48,572 nt of DNA from Piscinibacter caeni. Its GTDB lineage: Bacteria; Pseudomonadota; Gammaproteobacteria; Burkholderiales; Burkholderiaceae_C. The notes below the pieces were generated by a model. The model was given only the letters and a program-made list of their open reading frames with translations, was not told where the DNA came from and ran no database searches. The position numbers were made by a program, and so were the translations under genes. Shown one piece after another: positions 12,364-35,623 of this stretch (position 1 is the stretch's first letter; each line of letters begins with the position of its first letter). The stretch covers positions 16,059 through 64,630 of the forward strand of contig KZ836115.1 in the NCBI GenBank assembly GCA_003265685.1, in the 5' to 3' direction.

Positions 12364-12380
12364 GCCGCCGCTCAGGCGGC
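12364..12380. terminator. Hairpin in the ppsA / GHKL-regulator convergent junction
   Basis: GCCGCC, 5-base loop, GGCGGC, beginning one base after the ppsA stop and covering the stop codon of the convergent gene. It is symmetric, so it could act for both transcripts; no T tract is present on either side. Confidence 0.35.
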
Positions 12381-13400
12381 GTCGCGCCGCACCGCGTCGA
12401 TCATGGCCTCGACACGCGGCGCGGCGCGCACCGGCACGAGGGCGGTGCCGGGGTGGGCACGGGCGAACACGCGGAACAGTTCGTCGGCGAATCCATGGCC
12501 GACTGCGCTGATGCCGTCGAAATCGAGTTCGGCCCGTGCGAAGCGGGCCAGGCGCTCGGCCGCGAGTCGCGCCTGGGCGCGCGACTCGAGCCCGGTCTGC
12601 GCGCCGGTCAGCAAGGCCAACGGAACCCGCGTGCATTCGAAGGCGTAAGCGTCGCCGCCCAGGCTGTGGCTGCGGAGGACGTCGTCGACACGCTGCGGCG
12701 TGTCCAGCGCGATGCCGACGAATACCGAGGTGCCACGGTCGGTTGCCGCGCGCGCGGCGCGCCAGCGGCCGCCGTCCCAGGCGCGGCGTTGGAAAGCGTG
12801 GCGGTTGGCATGCAGGTCCAGCACGTCGGCGAGGCGGGCGGTGAAGAACAGGCCGCGGCCGCTGTGGCGCTCAGGCTGGCTGCTCAGCCTGCCCTTGGCC
12901 AGCTCGAGCGTCGCGCGCGCCGGGTCGTCGATGCCGAAACACTGCCCGATGCGCGCGTACAGGCCGCAGCCGTCGTCCGAGACGAGCAGTTGCAGGTGGC
13001 TCGCCGTCTGGCGCATCGACACGACCACCTGCGTGCCGCCGCTGTGGTCGATCGCGTTGTTGACCAGTTCGGTGAAGACATGCTGTGCGATGCGGGCCAG
13101 CTCGGCCGGCAGCGCGAAGCAGGGCGCGAAGTCGCGCGCCCAGGGGGTGTGTTCGTCCAGCCCGGCCAGCGCGTAGCGCCGCACGACTTCGCGCAGCAGC
13201 CCGGGGGCGTGGCGCGGCCGGCGCGGCGTGCCGGTGGACACCAGCCACTGGGCGCCGACCAGTTCGCCCAGCAGGCGCCGAGCCGTGCGGCGCCCCACCG
13301 ACAGGCGTTCGGCCAGGCGGTCGGCGAGCGCCTCCGGGTGGCGCAACGACTCCTCGGTGATCCAGGGCGTGACGGCGGACAAGGTCGGACGACGGGGCAT
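12372..13400 (-). CDS. HTH - GHKL ATPase - STAS-like DUF4325 regulatory protein
   Basis: A 342-residue cytosolic protein of three parts. Residues about 10-75 look like a winged helix-turn-helix ([20 protein letters not shown]). Residues about 100-225 are a GHKL ATPase domain with N box [10 protein letters not shown] (111-120), DDGCG (142-146) and GRGLFF (181-186). Residues about 275-335 match DUF4325, a STAS-like domain ([21 protein letters not shown]). GHKL plus STAS-like parts recall anti-sigma and anti-anti-sigma partner switching in one chain. The first 13 residues suit the ATG at 13400. It is convergent with ppsA and divergent from fba. Target and signal are unknown. Confidence 0.88.
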
Positions 13401-13574
13401 GGTGGAAGATCTCCCGCCGCGAGTGTTGCGCCGCTGCCGTGCCGGCCAACGCTCGAACAGGCGGGCATTGGCGCCTCATTCGCCGCGACCCGCTGGCTAG
13501 AATGAAGGCAATGCGCCGGGGCGGACCACCCGGTCTCGGCCGGCCAGCACGCCCATTCACTTCCGGAGACTCGC

Positions 13575-14639
13575 ATGCCCCTCGTCTCGATGCGCCAGCT
13601 GCTGGACCATGCCGCCGAAAACGGCTATGGCATCCCGGCCTTCAACGTGAACAACCTCGAGCAGGTGCAGGCGGTGATGACCGCGGCCGCCGAGGTCGGC
13701 GCGCCGGTGATCCTGCAGGCCAGCGCCGGGGCGCGCAAGTACGCCGGCGAGCCCTTCATCAAGCACCTGATCCTGGCCGCCACCGAGCAGTGGCCGAACG
13801 TGCCGCTGGTGATGCACCAGGACCATGGCCAGAGCCCGGACGTCTGCAAGGGGGCCATCGGCCTGGGTTTCAGCTCGGTGATGATGGACGGCTCGCTGCA
13901 GGCCGACGGCAAGACCATCGCGAGCTACGACTACAACGTCGACGTCACCAAGAAGGTGGTCGACATGGCGCATGCACTGGGCGTGACGGTCGAGGGCGAG
14001 CTCGGCTGCCTCGGCTCGCTCGAGACCATGCGCGGCGACAAGGAGGACGGCCACGGCACCGACGCGACGATGACGCGCGAGCAGTTGCTGACCGACCCCG
14101 AGCAGGCGGCCGACTTCGTCAAGCGCACCCAGCTCGACGCGCTGGCCATCGCGATCGGCACCAGCCACGGCGCCTACAAGTTCACCCGCAAGCCCACCGG
14201 CGACATCCTGGCGATCGACCGCATCAAGGAGATCCACCGCCGCATCCCGAACACGCACCTGGTGATGCACGGGTCGTCGTCGGTGCCGCAGGAGCTGCTG
14301 GCCGAGATCCGCCAGTACGGCGGCAACATGAAGGAGACCTATGGCGTGCCGGTGGAGGAGATCCAGGAGGCCATCAAGCACGGCGTGCGCAAGATCAACA
14401 TCGACACCGACATCCGCCTGGCGATGACCGGCGCGGTGCGCAAGTTCCTGCACGAGCACCCGGAGAAGTTCGATGCCCGCGAGTGGCTCAAGCCGGCGCG
14501 CGAGGCGGCCTACAAGGTCTGCAAGCAGCGCTACCTGGAGTTCGGCTGCGAGGGCCAGGCCGGCAAGATCAAGCCGCAGACGCTGGCCGAGGTGGCCGGT
14601 CGCTATGCGCGCGGGGAGCTGGCGCAGACGGTGGTCTGA
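13575..14639 (+). CDS. fba: Fructose-bisphosphate aldolase, class II
   Basis: A 354-residue zinc aldolase that splits fructose 1,6-bisphosphate into two triose phosphates, or joins them in gluconeogenesis or the Calvin cycle. MHQDHGQ holds catalytic and zinc-ligand residues; [16 protein letters not shown] and VMHGSSSV carry further ligands; [11 protein letters not shown] binds phosphate. It belongs to the longer Calvin-cycle-like subtype with an EYxxFG-like C-terminal end ([15 protein letters not shown]). GGAG lies 6 bases upstream. TAGAAT at 13498-13503 is a plausible -10 without a clear -35. A strong terminator follows. Confidence 0.97.
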
Positions 14640-14662
14640 GCGCCCCCGGCCCCGAGCGCAGG

Positions 14663-14686
14663 ACCCGGCCTTGGCCGGGTTCTTTC
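14663..14686 (+). terminator. Rho-independent terminator after fba
   Basis: ACCCGGCC-TT-GGCCGGGT (14663-14680) is a perfect 8-base stem with a tight loop, followed by TCTTTC. It lies 23 bases after the fba stop and separates fba from the pur operon. Confidence 0.85.
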
Positions 14687-14758
14687 ATTCAGGTCCTTAG
14701 AATCATGGGCCCCTTTCCGACGCCTCTCCCACGGCCGTCCGCGTGCGCAGGAGTTCCC

Positions 14759-15661
14759 ATGGATGACGCCCTCTACGACATTCCCCTCACCTCGCTGCCG
14801 CTGCTGTCCAAGGGCAAGGTGCGCAACAACTACGCGGTCGGCGAGGACCGGATCCTGATGGTGGCGAGCGACCGCATCAGCGCCTTCGACGTGATCATGA
14901 ACGAGCCGATCCCGGGCAAGGGCAAGCTGCTGACGCAGATGGCGCTGTTCTGGTTCGACAAGCTCAAGCATGTCGTGCCCAACCACCTCACGGGCGAGGA
15001 TCCCGAAAGCGTCGTGGCTCCCGAGGAGCGCGAACTCGTGCGCGGGCGCTCGATGCTGGTCAAGCGGCTCAAGCCCTTGCCGATCGAGGCGGTGGTGCGC
15101 GGCTACCTGGCCGGCAGCGGCTGGAAGGAGTACCAGCAAAGCGGCACGGTCTGCGGCGTGAAGCTGCCGCCGGGACTGAAGCAGGCCAGCAAACTGCCCG
15201 AGCCGATCTTCACGCCGGCGACCAAGGCGGAGATGGGGCAGCACGACGAGAACATCGACTTCGACCGCGCCTGCGCCATCGTCGGCCGCGAACTGGCGGA
15301 GAAGGTACGCGAGGTCTCGATCCGGCTATACAAGGAGGCCGCCGACTACGCGCTGGGCAAGGGGATCATCATCGCCGACACCAAGTTCGAGTTCGGGCTC
15401 GACGAGGCTGGGAGACTGACCTTGATGGATGAGATGTTGACGCCGGATTCGTCGAGATTTTGGAGGGTCAGTGAGTATGTGGAAGGGGCTGCGCCTGCCG
15501 GGCTTGACAAGCAGATACTTAGAGATTGGCTCGAGCGAGCAAACGTTGATGGCGCAATCTGGAACAAGTTGGCACCAGCGCCAATGCTTGACAAGACAGT
15601 CGTAAGCACTACCCGGTCCGCCTATGTTGATGCTTGTGCTGCCTTGGGGGTTCGACTGTGA
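14759..15661 (+). CDS. purC: Phosphoribosylaminoimidazole-succinocarboxamide synthase (SAICAR synthetase)
   Basis: A 300-residue enzyme joining aspartate to CAIR with ATP in purine synthesis. [55 protein letters not shown] and [12 protein letters not shown] are all present, and length is normal. The ATG at 14759 follows AGGAG by 6 bases; TAGAAT at 14698-14703 is a possible -10. Oddity: codons up to about 15405 are GC-rich like the rest of the window, but the last about 85 codons use AGA, AGG, ATA and many A/T-ending codons. Composition stays low through the next gene and into purE, so this gene is probably a recombinant mosaic, though its frame is intact. Its TGA overlaps the next gene's GTG. 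Confidence 0.97.
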
Positions 15662-16905
15662 CTTCGGGAATTCTCGATGAGCTTGATAGAAGCATAAGCG
15701 CGTGCAGTAGCGAATTGGGGGCGGCATTGCTTCGTGCTGAAAGGGCATTGCATATGGCCCGCCGCGGTGGTGAATATGAGCGTTGCGCAGCAGGAGAAAT
15801 TGAAGCGCTGCGAAGAGTCAACTTGTCGTGGGGGCATCCGAGCCTTAGTGCGTGGTGCAACGTTGCGGAGGGGATGCTCAGCCTAACAATTGACGAGTAT
15901 GCTCGCGCTGACGACAGATTGGAGCGTGCGCGGGTCGTATCAGATTCAGTCGGCGATCGACGAGTCCAATCGTGGGCGGTAGCGCTGCAAGCATTCATAA
16001 GCTACGTACGTGACCAATTTAGGGATGCTGTCCGTAGAGTTCGTCAGGTTATTGATTGGGCTGGCGATGCGGATCCGCTTGCACTAGCGAGAGCAAAAAT
16101 GCTTGTAGGTGAACTCCTTCATTACGCTGGAGAGTTCGAGCTTGCACGTCCTTGGTATGACGAATCTCGTAGCCATGCGATCTCCCGTAGGGATGACGGC
16201 TTCCAAAGCGCGTTGCTATTCAACATTGCTTCGCACCACTTCTCGCTTCTTCGGCAAGAATATGTGCGAGGGCGGAGTTCGACAACGTTTGCGCGCATGG
16301 TAGTGCTGGCAGTAGAGTCGGTTGAGAACTATGACGAATTGGTCGACATAACAAGTCAGGAGTCGCTGTTGTCGGCGCTTCGAGCATCAATTGATGCATT
16401 CTGCGGTAAGTTCGCAGAGGCCGACGCCCGTCTGCAAACCTTGCAGATGATTACCAAGGATACTGGGGTGACGAATTTCAATTCAATATGTCTTGCGGAT
16501 CGTGCATTCTGCTTGCTCAGAATTGGAGAGCGCAATCGAGTCATTCCCGCCGCAATCGAGGCGGAGGAGGCAATTCCCCGATCCGAACACCCTGAAAACG
16601 CTGCCTATACGAGGGACAGATTGGCACAGGTATATCTGGAAATCGGACTTGAGGATCGAGCGGCAGTTTTGCGAGAGGCTGCGGAGAAGGACTGGAGACG
16701 ATTCGAGGCCAGGCAAGCATTCGCATTGGATTGCCTACGGGAATTCAATTTTCTGTGATGGAGTTCTTCAAGATCCGAGCGGGTGTACGGCAATGAACCC
16801 AGGAATGATATCGATAGTAATGGGGTCGGTGTCGGATGGAGAGGTCATGCGGCAGGCGAGGGACTTACTGGACAGGTTTGAGTTGTCTTGCGAAACATGC
16901 GTCAT
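15410..16905. other. Low-GC mosaic segment spanning the purC end, gene X and the purE start
   Basis: Composition falls abruptly within purC just after its [10 protein letters not shown] motif and recovers in purE near ISAHRMPDD. Hand counts on 60-base lines give about 50% GC at 15541-15600 and 40% at 16441-16500, against 72% at 17461-17520. Boundaries are by eye, to within about 20-30 bases. No transposase, integrase or flanking repeat is seen, so homologous exchange with a lower-GC donor fits better than insertion by a mobile element. Confidence 0.8.
15658..16758 (+). CDS. Helical-repeat (TPR-like) protein of unknown function embedded in the pur operon
   Basis: A 366-residue protein, probably cytosolic, with no signal peptide or membrane helix. 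Much of it is paired amphipathic helices at roughly 40-residue spacing, with TPR-like positions (for example [21 protein letters not shown], and the stretches around residues 70-90, 110-130 and 270-300). I do not recognise a specific family. The GTG at 15658 was chosen because it overlaps the purC TGA (GTGA); an ATG eight codons earlier lies inside purC. Codon use is strikingly AT-rich compared with the rest of the window. Lying between purC and purE, it would be co-transcribed with purine genes, but nothing shows a purine role. It may be passenger cargo, a regulator or a defence gene. Confidence 0.8.
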
Positions 16906-17302
16906 CTCCGCCCACCGCATGCCCGACGATCTGTTTGCCTTCGCCGAGCAGGCCGCCTCGCGCGGCGTGAAGGCCATCATCGCGGGGGCGGGAGGTGCGG
17001 CGCACCTGCCTGGCATGCTGGCCGCCAAGACCACGGTGCCAGTGCTCGGGGTACCGATCCCGAGCAAGCACCTGCAGGGCGTCGATTCGCTGTACTCGAT
17101 CGTGCAGATGCCCAAGGGGATTCCGGTGGCCACCTTTGCCATCGGGGCCGCCGGCGCGGTGAACGCGGCGCTCTTTGCGATCGCGATGCTTGCCAATGAG
17201 GACCCGGCCCTGCGCGCCAAGCTGGAGGCCTATCGGGCCGAGCAGACCGCCAGGGCGCGCGCCATGACGGCGGAGCTGCAGAAGGATCTACCCGCGCCAT
17301 GA
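16793..17302 (+). CDS. purE: N5-carboxyaminoimidazole ribonucleotide mutase
   Basis: A 169-residue enzyme converting N5-CAIR to CAIR, working directly after PurK. VMGSVSDGEVM (phosphate loop), ISAHRMPDD (catalytic His), GAGGAAHLPGM and VPIPSKHLQGVDSLYSIVQMP are family signatures. Length is usual. The ATG at 16793 was taken; one at 16805 is also possible, and neither has a strong ribosome-binding site. The first about 38 codons are AT-rich with ATA codons like the preceding gene, and the remainder is GC-rich, marking a recombination breakpoint inside the gene. Its stop overlaps purK by 4 bases. Confidence 0.97.
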   Translation: MNPGMISIVMGSVSDGEVMRQARDLLDRFELSCETCVISAHRMPDDLFAFAEQAASRGVKAIIAGAGGAAHLPGMLAAKTTVPVLGVPIPSKHLQGVDSLYSIVQMPKGIPVATFAIGAAGAVNAALFAIAMLANEDPALRAKLEAYRAEQTARARAMTAELQKDLPAP

Positions 17303-18471
17303 GCTCATCAGCCCCTTTCATCGGCCCCGGCGCCACGCTCGGCGTGATGGGCGGCGGGCAGCTCGGGCGCATGTTCGTGCATGCCGCGCAACGCCTCGGC
17401 TACCTGACCGCGGTGCTCGACGAAGACCCGGCCAGCCCTGCCGGCCGGGTGGCGCATTACCACGTGCAGGCCGGCTACCTCGACGAAGCCGGCCTGGCGC
17501 AGCTGATGCAACGCAGCGCCGCCATCACCACCGAGTTCGAGAACGTGCCGGCCGCCGCCTTGCGCACCTTGGCCGCACACCGCCCGGTGGCCCCCGGCCC
17601 GGAGGCGGTGGCCGTGTGCCAGGACCGTGCCGCCGAGAAGGCGCATTTCGTCCGCAGCGGTGTCGCCTGCGCGCCGCATGCATCGATCGAGACGCCCGAG
17701 CAGCTGGCCGCGGTCGACGCGCGCCTGCTGCCCGGCATCCTGAAGACGGCCCGCCTGGGCTACGACGGCAAGGGGCAGGTCCGGGTCGATGACCGCGCGG
17801 CGCTGGCGGCCGCCTGGGATGCGCTGAAACGCGTTCCCTGCGTGCTCGAGCAGCGCCTCGACCTGGCCTTCGAGATCAGCGTGATCGTCGCGCGTGGTGC
17901 TTCCGGGGCGCTGGTGCACTTCCCGCCGCAGCACAACCTGCACCGCGACGGCGTCCTGGCCGTCACCACGGTGCCGGCGCCCGGCCTGGACGCCGCGCTG
18001 GCCGAACGGGCGGTCGCGTCGGCCGGCCGCATCGCCGCCGAGCTCGGTTACGTCGGCGTGCTGTGTGTCGAGTTCTTCGTGCTGCGCGACGGCTCGCTGC
18101 TGGCCAACGAGATGGCGCCGCGGCCGCACAACTCGGGCCACTACAGCATCGATGCCTGCGACCTGTCGCAGTTCGATCTGCAGGTGCGCGCGCTGACCGG
18201 CGCGCCGTTGGTCGCGCCGCGGCTGCACTCGAGCGCGGTGATGCTCAACCTGCTCGGCGATCTCTGGTTCCGCGACGGCTCGGCCGAGCCGCGCGAACCC
18301 GACTGGGCCGCCGTGCTGGCCTTGCCCGGCGCCCATCTCCACCTGTACGGCAAGCTGCAGGCGCGCGCGGGCCGCAAGATGGGGCACCTGACCTGCACCG
18401 CGGCCACCCCCGAGCAGGCCCGTGCCACGGCGCTCGAGGCCGCGGCGGTGCTCGGCATCGCGCCGTTCTGA
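17299..18471 (+). CDS. purK: N5-carboxyaminoimidazole ribonucleotide synthase
   Basis: A 390-residue ATP-grasp enzyme that carboxylates AIR with bicarbonate and ATP, supplying PurE. The N-terminal Rossmann-like domain begins LGVMGGGQLGRMF. The ATP-grasp core has KTARLGYDGKGQ and VLEQRLDLAFEISVIVAR. NEMAPRPHNSGHYSIDAC is the catalytic/metal region, and HLYGK lies near the C-terminal end. The ATG overlaps the purE TGA (ATGA), so the two are translationally coupled. Composition is normal for the window. Confidence 0.98.
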   Translation: MSSSAPFIGPGATLGVMGGGQLGRMFVHAAQRLGYLTAVLDEDPASPAGRVAHYHVQAGYLDEAGLAQLMQRSAAITTEFENVPAAALRTLAAHRPVAPGPEAVAVCQDRAAEKAHFVRSGVACAPHASIETPEQLAAVDARLLPGILKTARLGYDGKGQVRVDDRAALAAAWDALKRVPCVLEQRLDLAFEISVIVARGASGALVHFPPQHNLHRDGVLAVTTVPAPGLDAALAERAVASAGRIAAELGYVGVLCVEFFVLRDGSLLANEMAPRPHNSGHYSIDACDLSQFDLQVRALTGAPLVAPRLHSSAVMLNLLGDLWFRDGSAEPREPDWAAVLALPGAHLHLYGKLQARAGRKMGHLTCTAATPEQARATALEAAAVLGIAPF

Positions 18472-18482
18472 CGCGCCCCGCG

Positions 18483-19466
18483 ATGCTGCTGGCCGGTGAG
18501 GACCCCACCGCGGTCGAACGTGCCGCGCAGGTGCTGGCCGAGGGCGGGCTGGTCGGCCTGCCGACCGAAACCGTCTACGGGCTCGGCGCGCGCGCCGACC
18601 GCGACGAGGCCGTGGCGGCGATCTTCGCCCTCAAGGGGCGGCCGAGCGACCATCCGCTCATCGTGCACATCGCCGAGCCGGAGGATGCGGCGCAGTTCGC
18701 CGCCGACTGGCCGCCGGTCGCGCAGCGACTGGCGCAAGCCTTCTGGCCCGGGCCGCTGACGCTGATCGTGCCGCGCCGCCCCGAGCGGGCCGCGGCGGCG
18801 GCCGCGGGGCAGCCGTCGATCGGCCTGCGCTGCCCCGCACACCCGGTGGCGCAGGGGCTGCTGCGCGCGGCGCGCGAGCGCGGTGTGCCCGGCGTGGCGG
18901 CGCCCAGCGCGAATCGCTTCGGCCGCATCAGCCCGACCCGCGCCGAGCACGTGGTCGAGGAGTTCGGCGAGGCCCTGCTGGTGCTCGACGGCGGGGCCTG
19001 CCCAGTCGGCATCGAGTCCGCGATCGTCGACTGCACGCGCGGCCACCCGGTGCTGCTGCGCCCCGGCCAGCTCGGCCGCGAGCGTCTCGAGGCCGCGGCC
19101 GGCGAGGCGCTGCGCGAGCCCGACGAGGCGGCACCGCGTGCCTCGGGCACGCTCGAGGCGCACTACGCCCCGCGCGCCCGGCTGCGCCTGATGCCCGCGC
19201 TCATGCTGAACACGGCGTTGCAGGTGCTCGGGCCGGGCGAGGTGAAGCTGGCGCTATATTCCCGCACGGTCCGCCTGCCGCCCGGCTCGCGGCTGCGGCA
19301 CAAGCCGATGCCCCTGCAGGCGGACGCGGCAGCGCACGATCTGTTCGCCGACCTGCGCGAGATCGACGCGCTGGGCGTCGACCTGATCTGGGTCGAGGAG
19401 CCGCCGCCCGAGCCGGCCTGGGATGGCGTGCGCGACCGCCTGCGGCGAGCCGCCGCCGCCTCCTGA
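18483..19466 (+). CDS. sua5: L-threonylcarbamoyladenylate synthase, long Sua5 type
   Basis: A 327-residue enzyme making threonylcarbamoyl-AMP from threonine, bicarbonate and ATP, the first step toward the t6A modification of tRNA. The N-terminal YrdC domain (about 1-205) has GLPTETVYGLGARAD, KGRPSDHPLIVHI, FWPGPLTLIVPR and APSANRFGRISPT. The C-terminal Sua5 domain (about 220-327), absent from the short TsaC form, follows a linker with SGTLEAHYAPRA. It begins 11 bases after purK. tsaB, the partner for the next t6A step, is 2.5 kb downstream, so part of the t6A pathway is local. Confidence 0.95.
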   Translation: MLLAGEDPTAVERAAQVLAEGGLVGLPTETVYGLGARADRDEAVAAIFALKGRPSDHPLIVHIAEPEDAAQFAADWPPVAQRLAQAFWPGPLTLIVPRRPERAAAAAAGQPSIGLRCPAHPVAQGLLRAARERGVPGVAAPSANRFGRISPTRAEHVVEEFGEALLVLDGGACPVGIESAIVDCTRGHPVLLRPGQLGRERLEAAAGEALREPDEAAPRASGTLEAHYAPRARLRLMPALMLNTALQVLGPGEVKLALYSRTVRLPPGSRLRHKPMPLQADAAAHDLFADLREIDALGVDLIWVEEPPPEPAWDGVRDRLRRAAAAS

Positions 19467-32578: not shown

Positions 32579-32770
32579 ATGCGCTGGCTGCTGATCTTCC
32601 TGCTCTCGTTCCTGGTCTTCCAGGGTCTGGCCGGCTGGCTGCGCCGCATCGGCCTGGGCCGCCTGCCGGGCGACTTCAGCTTCCGCTGGCGCGGCCGCGA
32701 GTGGCACGTGCCGCTGGCCAGCAGCCTGCTGCTGAGCATGCTGGCGATGCTGGTGGGGCTGCTGGTCTGA
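32579..32770 (+). CDS. DUF2905 small membrane protein
   Basis: A 63-residue protein with two transmembrane helices (about 3-22 and 46-63) separated by RRIGLGRLPGDFSFRWRGREW, the conserved loop of DUF2905. GGGAG lies 5 bases before the ATG. It is the last gene of the methyltransferase operon and marks the left border of the accessory cassette. Function unknown. Confidence 0.9.
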   Translation: MRWLLIFLLSFLVFQGLAGWLRRIGLGRLPGDFSFRWRGREWHVPLASSLLLSMLAMLVGLLV

Positions 32771-32853
32771 GCGGGCAGGCCCTGCACGCCGCTCGACGAG
32801 GCCTCGTCCCCATGGCCGGTCGGCGCCATCGCCACGCCTGCCGGCGAACCGAG

Positions 32854-33429
32854 TCAGCCGCGCAGCCACACGAACAACAGCGCAAGCCCGAGGAGGGCGC
32901 CCAGGTCGTAGGTCAGCTTCATGAACAGGGCGGTGGTCCACTGCCTGCGGTCGAGCAGGTCCATGACCTGAAGGGCCTTGGAGCGGGTGGGTGCGATCTG
33001 CAGCGCCCAGTCGTTCCCCTGACGCTGCATCTCGTTCAGCGCGCCCGACGACAGGGTCTCGAGCAGGGTCCGCCGCAGCAGGTTGATCTTGCTGCGATAG
33101 CGCTCGGTGGCCTTACGCTCGCTGAGCGCGATATACCGGAAAGCGAGCGACAGCAGCAGCAGCCACAAGCCGGCCAGTCCGCGCAGATCGGCCGCCATCG
33201 CGACGAGTGCCGCGGGCCGGGGCGATGTCGCATGCATGGCCGCGGCGAGCACGATCGTGGCAACCAGGCAGTAGCCGAGAAACAGCTTCAAGCGCTTCTC
33301 CTCGAGCCCGCCGAGGTGGCGCCAGGCGGCATCGAACTCCGCCAGCAGGTAGCGGATACCCGCCTCGCCGATCGGGGCATGCCCCGGGCCGTCGATGCCG
33401 GCAGGCGTTGTGGTTTCCGGTGGACTCAT
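32854..33429 (-). CDS. Cassette gene 3: three-helix membrane protein of unknown function
   Basis: A 191-residue protein. Hydrophobic helices lie at about 47-67, 80-102 and 170-189; a charged cytosolic-looking helical region (about 103-168) includes a basic ERKATERYRSKINLLRR stretch. I recognise no family. It is the last gene of a three-gene minus-strand cassette, 50 bases after the gene upstream, and ends 83 bases from DUF2905. Composition is less GC-rich than the flanking housekeeping genes. A membrane effector or partner for the first cassette gene is a speculative role. Confidence 0.75.
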   Translation of the reverse strand: MSPPETTTPAGIDGPGHAPIGEAGIRYLLAEFDAAWRHLGGLEEKRLKLFLGYCLVATIVLAAAMHATSPRPAALVAMAADLRGLAGLWLLLLSLAFRYIALSERKATERYRSKINLLRRTLLETLSSGALNEMQRQGNDWALQIAPTRSKALQVMDLLDRRQWTTALFMKLTYDLGALLGLALLFVWLRG

Positions 33430-33479
33430 CGTGGCTGGTCGTGGTGGCGCTGCGACGCGCCGTGGTGCGGGGCCGGCAT

Positions 33480-34754
33480 TCAGGCCGCCGGCGGGAGGGG
33501 CATCGAGAAATCCGCGGCCGGTCGCCAGGTCAGCGCGCCGAGGCTCTCGGCGTCGGCCAGCGCGCGGTAGGCGCCGATCGCTTCGTAGGTCATGCGGATC
33601 TTCAGGTCCGGCCGAAGGTCATGGATCTTCTCGTCGCGTGCCAGCCTGATCTCGGGAAAGTCTTCGCCGTACTCGTGCGCCTCCGGGGCCACGCCCTTCT
33701 TCTTTCGTTGTTCGATGATGACCTCCTTCAGTTCCAAGGGATCGCAATCGAAATCGGCGACGAAGAAGATCTGCGGCTTCCCGGCACGCGGCAGCTCACG
33801 CGCCATTTCGAGGACGGCGATCCGGTAGTTCACGCCCTCGACGCCGATGGCCGGAATGCCGCACTCCTTGGTGATCTCGCGCACCATGCCGCGCACCATG
33901 CCGTAGGCCAGCGAGGCCGGGTCAACGTTGCCGTCGCTTCGGCAGATGTCCTGCCACTCGAGCACGCCTGATGACGAGACGTGCATGCCCGCCTTCATCA
34001 CCGCCATCGGCTTGCCTTCTTCCGCGCGGCCCTTCCGGTCGTTGAACACCAGGGTCCTGCCCTTAGCCAGGAAGAGGCACGCCACGCCCAGGCCGTTGGC
34101 CAGCGGCGAGTCGGTCCAGCGCGCGAAGCCGCCCTGGCGGCTTGCCAGCTGCCGCAATGTTCTTCCGCCCAGGCTCGACAGTGCCTCGTCGCAGTGCAGG
34201 TTGGACAGGCTCGAATCCAGGTAGCTCGCCTTCTCGAGCGACAGTCGCCCTGCCCCGGGGTCGAACTCCGCGAGTCGGACAATCGTGTTGATTTCGCAGC
34301 GTCGGAACCGGTCCGGCCAACGGATCGGGAACAGATCGAAGTCCGGGCAGGCCAGCTCCGACTTGTTCAGATGGATGTGCCGGTCCGCCAAGGCCGCCAG
34401 TTCGACGCCGACGGCATCGGCGCCCGTGACACCGAGCTCCTGCAGCGCACGATGGATGTCCCAGTACGCGGCCGGCGCAGGCCCGGGCATCTGCAGCGAG
34501 TCGATCGACACTGCCCCGACGCCTTCGGCGCCGGTGCCAGCCACGCGCACCGGCATCCTGTCGGCGTACCAGTGTCCCCAAGATTCGTCGCCGTAGGTGC
34601 AGGCGAGCGTCGCGAACTTGGGGTAGGCCTCGCGCAGGAAGCGGTGCGCACCCTGCTTGAGTTCCTTCAGCTTCGCGAAGCGTTCCTCGGGGGCCAGGTC
34701 GGCGTCGAGCTTGATGTCGAAATCGACGAACCGCCTTCTCGGCGTGGTCATCAT
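33480..34754 (-). CDS. Cassette gene 2: protein with degenerate Nudix-like segment
   Basis: A 424-residue soluble protein without signal or membrane helix. The N-terminal about 150 residues are unrecognised (an odd FATLACTYGDESWGHWYADR stretch is rich in aromatics). The middle, about 155-300, runs from CEINTIVRLAEFDP through an N-x-LGVACLFLAKGRTLVFNDR strand pair to VREITKECGI (291-300). This recalls a Nudix hydrolase ending REx-x-E-x-GI, but the preceding Gly-x5-Glu of a true Nudix box is missing, so catalysis is doubtful. The start overlaps the stop of cassette gene 1 (ATGA); a second ATG directly follows the first. A nucleotide-sensing role in an accessory system is inference only. Confidence 0.75.
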   Translation of the reverse strand: MMTTPRRRFVDFDIKLDADLAPEERFAKLKELKQGAHRFLREAYPKFATLACTYGDESWGHWYADRMPVRVAGTGAEGVGAVSIDSLQMPGPAPAAYWDIHRALQELGVTGADAVGVELAALADRHIHLNKSELACPDFDLFPIRWPDRFRRCEINTIVRLAEFDPGAGRLSLEKASYLDSSLSNLHCDEALSSLGGRTLRQLASRQGGFARWTDSPLANGLGVACLFLAKGRTLVFNDRKGRAEEGKPMAVMKAGMHVSSSGVLEWQDICRSDGNVDPASLAYGMVRGMVREITKECGIPAIGVEGVNYRIAVLEMARELPRAGKPQIFFVADFDCDPLELKEVIIEQRKKKGVAPEAHEYGEDFPEIRLARDEKIHDLRPDLKIRMTYEAIGAYRALADAESLGALTWRPAADFSMPLPPAA

Positions 34755-35524
34755 GCGGCCTCCGCGCCGGAGCGGACACGATCGCGGTACTGCCGGTACC
34801 CGCGCTTCTCGAGGGCGTCCGCCAGGAATGCGATCGCCCGCCGGTCCCGTCCGTCGGGGGCGGCCCCGGCACGCAGGCGACAGACGAACGGCAGGTAGAA
34901 GAGCAACTCCACGTCCGAGAGAGATCCGGACAAGGTCTCGTCACCAAAGTCGAGCAGGTCGAGCATGGCCAGGTAGGCGTGCTGGAAGCTGTGGGCCTGA
35001 CGACCTAGGTGCAGGTTCAATGCCCGCCCGTCGACGATCTTCGTGACGAGGCTGGACTGCTTCGACTGAGACGTACCGGCGTCCGACAGGCGCTGCACCG
35101 TGTTGAACTCGTCGTTGACCTCCCTGAAGAACCGCATGAAGGCCTCGCGCCCGGTCCAGACGCGATCGTCGGCGCCCAGCTGGACATACTGGATGGACAT
35201 CACCGCAGCCTCGTAGCGCTGGATGGCCGCGGCCACCTGCTGCCGTCGGGCCTCGCTGAGCTGCAGGCGGAATGTGGCGAGCACGAACAGGATGGTGGTG
35301 AACGACAGGAACGGATTGAGGAAGTCCCCCAGCTGGCCCAGCTGCGCACGGGCCTCGCTGACATCCTTTGGCAGCCAGGCATCGAGCGTGAGCCATCGGT
35401 CCGGCGTCAGCCATCGCCCCTGCAGCACGACGACGTGCACGGCCGCATAGATCAGCAGCGACATCAGCAGGACGCCGACGGCGACCAGGACGATGTACGC
35501 AAGCACGCTTCGCCAGGGCTTCAT
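34751..35524 (-). CDS. Cassette gene 1: two-helix membrane protein resembling putative phage abortive-infection proteins
   Basis: A 257-residue protein. Transmembrane helix 1 is at about 8-34. After a short loop, GQLGDFLNPFLSFTTILFVL leads into helix 2 (about 68-88), then RLQLSEARRQQ and a helical cytosolic domain with FMRFFREVNDEFNTVQ and HSFQHAYLAMLDLLDFG. This layout and the NPFLSF segment recall the putative phage abortive-infection (putAbiC) family, a similarity from memory. It is the first gene of the cassette, with its own promoter and a hairpin before a purine-rich GAGGGGAAGGGA ribosome-binding region. It is coupled to the next gene by ATGA. Confidence 0.75.
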   Translation of the reverse strand: MKPWRSVLAYIVLVAVGVLLMSLLIYAAVHVVVLQGRWLTPDRWLTLDAWLPKDVSEARAQLGQLGDFLNPFLSFTTILFVLATFRLQLSEARRQQVAAAIQRYEAAVMSIQYVQLGADDRVWTGREAFMRFFREVNDEFNTVQRLSDAGTSQSKQSSLVTKIVDGRALNLHLGRQAHSFQHAYLAMLDLLDFGDETLSGSLSDVELLFYLPFVCRLRAGAAPDGRDRRAIAFLADALEKRGYRQYRDRVRSGAEAA

Positions 35525-35539
35525 CGATCCCTTCCCCTC

Positions 35540-35555
35540 TGGAGGTAGTCCTCCA
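35540..35555 (-). promoter_or_regulatory. Hairpin before the cassette ribosome-binding site
   Basis: TGGAGG-ACTA-CCTCCA on the minus strand, a perfect 6-base stem ending 16 bases before the first cassette ATG. It contains an SD-like GGAGG in its 5-prime arm, but the purine run GAAGGGA nearer the ATG is the likelier binding site. Confidence 0.4.
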
Positions 35556-35581
35556 CGCCACGTTGTGACGATGTGCGGGGG

Positions 35582-35609
35582 AGCGTACCGGGCGTTGCCG
35601 CCCTGTCAA
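35582..35609 (-). promoter_or_regulatory. Candidate promoter of the accessory cassette
   Basis: TTGACA (35609-35604, perfect -35) is followed after 16 bases by TACGCT (35587-35582, 3 of 6 for a -10). The spacer contains a GGGCG-GCAA-CGCCC hairpin (35603-35590) that could be an operator or a residual terminator of cca, whose stop is just upstream at 35624. Confidence 0.5.
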
Positions 35610-35623
35610 CTGCCCAGCCGATG

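Follow-up and report, generated by a model that had tools for sequence, protein, structure and literature searches.

Three genes of Piscinibacter caeni, called A, B and C here, make up a real insertion at the site between cca and a DUF2905 gene, and B, by prediction a relative in fold of the human Nudix protein NUDT22, has opened the way to a family of bacterial proteins whose N-terminal parts have been exchanged repeatedly for TIR domains or membrane segments. This bacterial NUDT22-like family, and the domain shuffling within it, is the most useful result of the analysis; a literature search, with subscription journals and preprints outside its reach, returned no description of such a family. 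I would give a probability of roughly 40% to the reading that the cassette is a horizontally acquired operon in which a nucleotide-binding B controls one or both membrane proteins and so brings about a defence-type growth arrest. The evidence comes from the 48,572-nucleotide stretch of DNA that was analysed (the window) and from genome, plasmid and viral sequences searched with its proteins.

The cca-DUF2905 site and its insert

The three intact frames are co-directional, as had been originally predicted, and lie on the minus strand between cca and DUF2905 in the transcription order A (35524..34751, 257 aa, a membrane protein judging from hydropathy and its relatives), B (34754..33480, 424 aa, a soluble NUDT22-like protein with a degenerate Nudix box) and C (33429..32854, 191 aa, a membrane protein). 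The TGA stop of A and the ATG start of B overlap by four bases (ATGA), and about 50 bp separate B from C. Genus-wide DNA comparison and the junctions place the inserted segment, 2855 bp long, at 32769..35623 between the 3' ends of DUF2905 and cca. When the genus (8 genomes) was searched at the DNA level, both flanks were recovered in 8/8 and the cassette in 1/8, its own genome, which bears out the idea of an accessory cassette in a location otherwise conserved in the genus. G910, the relative with the most similar flanks (93% identity), has 8 bp between its DUF2905 and cca matches versus the 2855 bp here, and three more have flank-to-flank gaps of 18 bp (G909), 46 bp (G911) and 39 bp (G091, from match coordinates); gaps this small (8-46 bp) mean that the site is empty in all four, so the empty DUF2905-cca sites looked for in relatives do exist. 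The two flanks sit on two contigs in G912, and nine further genomes of the family, whose cca has no DUF2905 gene closer than 1.5 kb, are uninformative on occupancy.

Other DNA occupies the site in two relatives, 503 bp in G908 (L064:570-1072) and about 1.05 kb in G193, and the site therefore accepts varied cargo and is a small integration spot. Inspected by eye, the DNA at the G193 site (L032:2718-3730) resembles the gene of a membrane protein of cytochrome oxidase subunit III type. A permissive site of this kind, together with the lack of co-occurrence of the three genes elsewhere, is what one would expect if A, B and C were unconnected orphans that drifted in and have no joint function, an explanation that I consider improbable in view of three frames that are intact, co-directional, overlapping or closely spaced and matched in composition. 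Their G+C contents are 66.3, 66.4 and 67.7% (A, B and C) with GC3 of 0.86-0.875, versus 76.7% and 0.956 for the flanking cca and 72.2% and 0.965 for gst, and the hand counts of G+C made earlier in three 60-base stretches (60.0%, 66.7% and 76.7%) were correct. The insert as a whole has a G+C of 67.25% against a mean of 71.1% for equal-length segments of the window, 33/458 of which are at or below the insert value; since 32 of these 33 start at 12.9-16.0 kb, in another low-GC stretch, and the remaining one overlaps the cassette, low G+C alone does not make the cassette unique. Across the window, G+C is lowest in that other stretch, around fbaA and purE (12900-18800), with a minimum of 60% over 2.85 kb, and the protein encoded at 12372-13400 has HATPase and STAS-like DUF4325 domains.

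Upstream of the gene A start, a perfect inverted repeat read from the sequence (TGGAGG-N4-CCTCCA, 35540..35555) is a possible operator, and the RNA of this region folds no better than shuffles (z -0.81). Farther upstream, within the insert, a minus-strand TTGACA hexamer read by eye (35604..35609) is a possible -35 box, with a poor hexamer downstream of it, and a consensus promoter scan of the insert reported no promoter. Neither long terminal repeats nor a matching terminator marking the insert were found, none of A, B and C resembles an integrase, and Pfam, run on 18 further frames from the window, gave no recognised defence family.

B, a predicted NUDT22-type protein, and its bacterial family

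B has no membrane segment by hydropathy. NUDT22 is its top match by profile (E 0.06), all three of its matches up to E 10 being Nudix proteins, and it is also the top structural match of the predicted model of B, which agrees with the NUDT22 fold even in the part before the Nudix domain; the first 154 residues are a low-confidence part of the model. B is accordingly described here as a predicted NUDT22-type Nudix fold, and the degenerate Nudix segment suspected earlier in this gene has been upheld by predicted structure and made more precise. The canonical Nudix box has the form GX5EX7REUXEEXGU, and B has no intact version of it, a Lys replacing one Glu and the preceding stretch misfitting the spacing. 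Human NUDT22 (PDB 5lf9, 5lor, 5lou) is likewise an outlier, a Nudix protein without a conventional box, and E293 and E297 of B align with the two Glu of its QEICDE segment; B differs from it in being bacterial, in an identity of 18%, in the Lys that stands between these two Glu where NUDT22 has Asp, in the overlap of its gene with a membrane-protein gene, and in having relatives with TIR or membrane fusions. Because B keeps both aligned Glu, it may simply be an enzyme. Pfam gives no Nudix match for B, nor for those of its relatives that were submitted, and Pfam, PADLOC and NCBIfam yielded nothing for B above cut-off, with a single PHROGs match at E 0.13. A phmmer match of B in the PDB to the designed protein 7on6 (E 6.2e-4, residues 123-158, no stretch passing alone) was taken as a match of composition.

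Relatives of B are rare. Of 250 family genomes, its own is the one with a match at E <= 1e-3; seven others give matches at E 1e-3 to 1e-2 which, short and to varied parts, were taken as chance. A sample of 300 genomes from the order yielded one distant relative, from Undibacterium (G482); in 398 genomes of the phylum B matched its own genome alone, and in 200 genomes of the order profile A2 likewise matched just that genome. Single-sequence searches with B of genome contigs and viral contigs were empty, and a profile was needed; viral contigs also gave nothing with the B-like part of the Undibacterium protein or with an earlier B-family profile. Two plasmid relatives were reached from the Undibacterium protein, the plasmid and phage searches with this protein group being otherwise empty. 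A profile of four family proteins then recovered ten genome-contig loci, including the Undibacterium gene again, and a profile of 13 added one viral contig and one further genome, G596, which matches part of the profile only (E 8.7e-9). Without double counting there are 14 relatives: proteins of Halomonas, Sulfitobacter, Lentibacter, Martelella, a prophage, Undibacterium, G596, four Clostridia metagenome-assembled genomes (MAGs), Psychrobacter, Acetoanaerobium and an Arthrobacter plasmid.

The relation lies in the NUDT22-like part. Against 12 of these relatives (200 shuffles each; the prophage and G596 proteins were left out), residues 155-424 of B are related to 12/12 (z 9.8-39.9) and residues 1-154 show no relation to any (z -1.3 to 2.0), and alignments of 13 and 12 rows give Y178, N185, D189, R201, S216, N220, G223, R240, R319, G325-K326-P327 and F331 as invariant. 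What precedes this part varies across the family. Two of the 14 relatives, from Undibacterium (PF13676, 1.4e-11) and G596 (PF13676, 1.3e-17), are fused to TIR, and six carry N-terminal membrane segments, two each in the proteins of the four Clostridia MAGs and of the Arthrobacter plasmid and one, at the same threshold, in that of Acetoanaerobium, so that membrane coupling recurs. Five are soluble and unfused, among them the closest relatives (Halomonas, Sulfitobacter, Lentibacter and Martelella; 30-33%), and the Psychrobacter protein, whose frame starts near the locus edge, was left unclassified. In the four Clostridia MAG proteins both Glu of the Nudix box are lost, as would suit the binding of a ligand better than catalysis in those members.

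The Undibacterium aquatile fusion (L023:7203-10938) has close behind it the gene of a PGDYG protein (PF14083, 5.4e-22) with four predicted membrane segments, and the two are likely to form a two-gene conflict system. Its TIR part resembles PADLOC ThsB models (2.6e-6); no PADLOC model matches the PGDYG protein, which is also without a SLATT match, its SLATT likeness being by eye only. A hydropathy segment flagged inside the Undibacterium TIR domain was taken as false. The G596 protein (L068:676-2265) is a single chain in which the TIR domain is followed by one membrane segment and accompanied by a NUDT22-like part. The prophage-borne relative (L069:4470-5756) occupies a cargo-like position, its gene being oriented against the phage genes that were read, in a prophage-like contig recognised by lysozyme (7e-42), DUF968 (8e-58), KilAC (4e-26) and, weakly, Nu1; the gene of a small membrane protein lies near it on the phage-gene strand.

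These members bear on a serious rival, that of an accessory sugar-nucleotide enzyme in a metabolic, envelope-related cassette, in which B would hydrolyse UDP-glucose or UDP-galactose as human NUDT22 does, A and C would be envelope proteins, and surface polysaccharide or nucleotide salvage would be altered, with phages affected indirectly or not at all. The fold and the two kept Glu of B are in its favour, and PMC10101856 describes the conversion of UDP-glucose into glucose-1-phosphate and UMP by NUDT22. The Halomonas relative of B, moreover, stands behind an O-antigen-ligase-like gene and then a glycosyltransferase-like gene, the latter ending about 12 bp before it (both named by eye). I nevertheless regard this explanation as unlikely overall, since the family includes TIR fusions, a prophage-borne member and the four membrane-fused members without either Glu, and since the insert contains no glycan gene (frames, Pfam); a screen of human Nudix proteins (PMC5688067) reportedly left NUDT22 without a clear substrate. 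The B relatives of Sulfitobacter and Lentibacter (L020:5263-8720, L021:5343-8738) begin 3-40 bp behind uvrB, which was named by eye and runs in the same direction, and the neighbours of the closest relatives look no more like defence than like metabolism.

The membrane proteins A and C

A has two transmembrane segments near its N-terminus (about residues 7-25 and 65-83) followed by a soluble part, by hydropathy, with a LGQLGDFLNPFLSF motif at the second segment. Beyond its own genome, its relatives at E <= 0.001 among 250 family genomes are two, a protein of G082 (L013; E 1.7e-7, shuffle z 18.6) and one of G186 (E 1.1e-7; truncated by the contig end), and the N-terminal membrane part with the LGQLGDF motif is common to A and the proteins of G082 and G186. 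The G082 relative carries DUF4760 (PF15956, 2e-11); A shares its N-terminal membrane part with that protein but gives no DUF4760 match of its own in Pfam, and the C-terminal part of A aligns with it weakly (z 1.8, 19/300 shuffles as good). A also matches phrog_8999 (E 8.1e-6), a PHROG of unknown function, and in Pfam, PADLOC and NCBIfam neither A nor C has a match above cut-off; viral contigs gave no relatives, and the PDB nothing from the sequence, with ExbD at E 0.12-0.18 from the profile of A.

The original prediction compared A with AbiC-like abortive-infection proteins, and by eye the likeness to putAbiC (PF16872) is there, in two N-terminal membrane segments with an LGQ.GD motif at the second. 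As a statement of membership it had to be rejected, because A has no PF16872 match at E up to 10 and aligns with one member (L042) no better than with shuffles (z 0.1); the comparison is with this one member, 1/60 relatives having had one and plasmids none. The G082 relative of A does reach z 3.7 against the same member (1/300 shuffles as good), and on this alignment A may have a very distant tie to putAbiC.

The G186 relative of A sits directly after a HepT gene (PF01934, 2.6e-27), which counts in favour of the defence-type operon reading as well. This neighbour, along with the tight A/B overlap, the small size and patchy occurrence of the cassette and the putative operator upstream of A, could be accommodated by a toxin-antitoxin-like pair in which A and/or C would be a membrane toxin, B would neutralise it, either directly or through removal of a nucleotide that activates it, and the cassette would mainly keep itself; against B being large and having an enzyme fold, and with no toxin-antitoxin family matched by A, B or C in Pfam, PADLOC, NCBIfam or PHROGs, there is little chance that this is the answer. 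The G186 relative is also preceded by a nucleotidyltransferase-like gene (L012:616-1926, by eye).

For C, three membrane segments by hydropathy agree with the three-helix membrane protein first described. It has no relatives at E <= 0.001 beyond its own genome among 250 family genomes, none was found in plasmids or viral contigs, the PDB gave nothing, and its single-sequence model, all-helical with a pLDDT of 50.5, is too poor for a structure search. A SLATT or 8xMP reading gained no clear support: Pfam offers at most a sub-threshold 8xMP (E 0.14), neither Pfam nor PADLOC a SLATT match above cut-off, and the comparison with the PGDYG protein encoded next to the TIR fusion of Undibacterium stays at shuffle level (z 2.2, 17/300 as good). 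One might then suppose that A and B are a two-gene system and C an unrelated passenger in the same inserted segment, as the 4-base overlap versus the roughly 50-bp gap before C and the absence of C relatives wherever searched would allow; C matches A and B in strand, G+C and GC3 and lies within the same insert, and I find this supposition quite unlikely.

A defence-type reading of the cassette

The co-occurrence check proposed with the original prediction went against a fixed three-gene system: no relative of A or C was found at the 14 B-family loci (best E 0.099; flanks up to about 8 kb, several shorter), and the three-gene unit is therefore known from one genome. Nor did profile searches of the three proteins against defence models succeed, no PADLOC 2.0.0 family matching any of them up to E 10. 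What stands of the anti-phage idea is context, in the TIR fusions, the membrane fusions, the one prophage-borne relative and the patchy occurrence, and a defence role is thus best called possible. PMC7159879 and PMC9503650 present TIR, Nudix and SLATT modules as components of nucleotide- or NAD-linked conflict systems, and the likeness to the TIR/SLATT nucleotide-centred systems presented there lies in the two TIR-fused relatives of B and in membrane proteins that occur as partners or fused parts; the cassette differs from them in having no TIR or SLOG match, and no match sets A or C as SLATT.

In the operon reading favoured here, B would bind, and perhaps cleave, a nucleotide, which might be a UDP-sugar, as with human NUDT22, because of the fold, or an NAD/ADP-ribose type product because of the TIR link. 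B would act on or beside the membrane protein A, with C a further membrane component, and if stress or an infecting phage altered this nucleotide, one or both membrane proteins would be set free or activated, with damage to the membrane and a halt of growth as the outcome. The A/B overlap suggests that A and B act jointly, and the repeated link of a NUDT22-like part to TIR and to membrane segments suggests that a nucleotide is read and a membrane or NAD-consuming effector controlled; this link occurs in the relatives, its counterpart in the window being the A/B gene overlap only.

A broader and more tentative reading, less likely than not, is that the NUDT22 fold is a constant bacterial sensor coupled variously to TIR, to N-terminal membrane segments or, as in this cassette, to separate membrane proteins from overlapping or neighbouring genes, with box residues intact in some members and lost in others, that this would be an undescribed class of nucleotide-controlled immune module, and that human NUDT22 shares ancestry with a conflict module. 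The TIR fusion would give this human Nudix outlier possible prokaryotic relatives in conflict systems, and it will be interesting to ask which nucleotide the NUDT22-like module reads and whether it controls a membrane protein. Among smaller observations on the family, the gene after the relative of B resembles a PP2C phosphatase at two loci (L028:1131-1937, E 0.018, below cut-off; L017:6761-7558, by eye), and one membrane-type relative (L026:471-3227) continues in a single frame into a pfkB-family kinase (PF00294, 3e-25).
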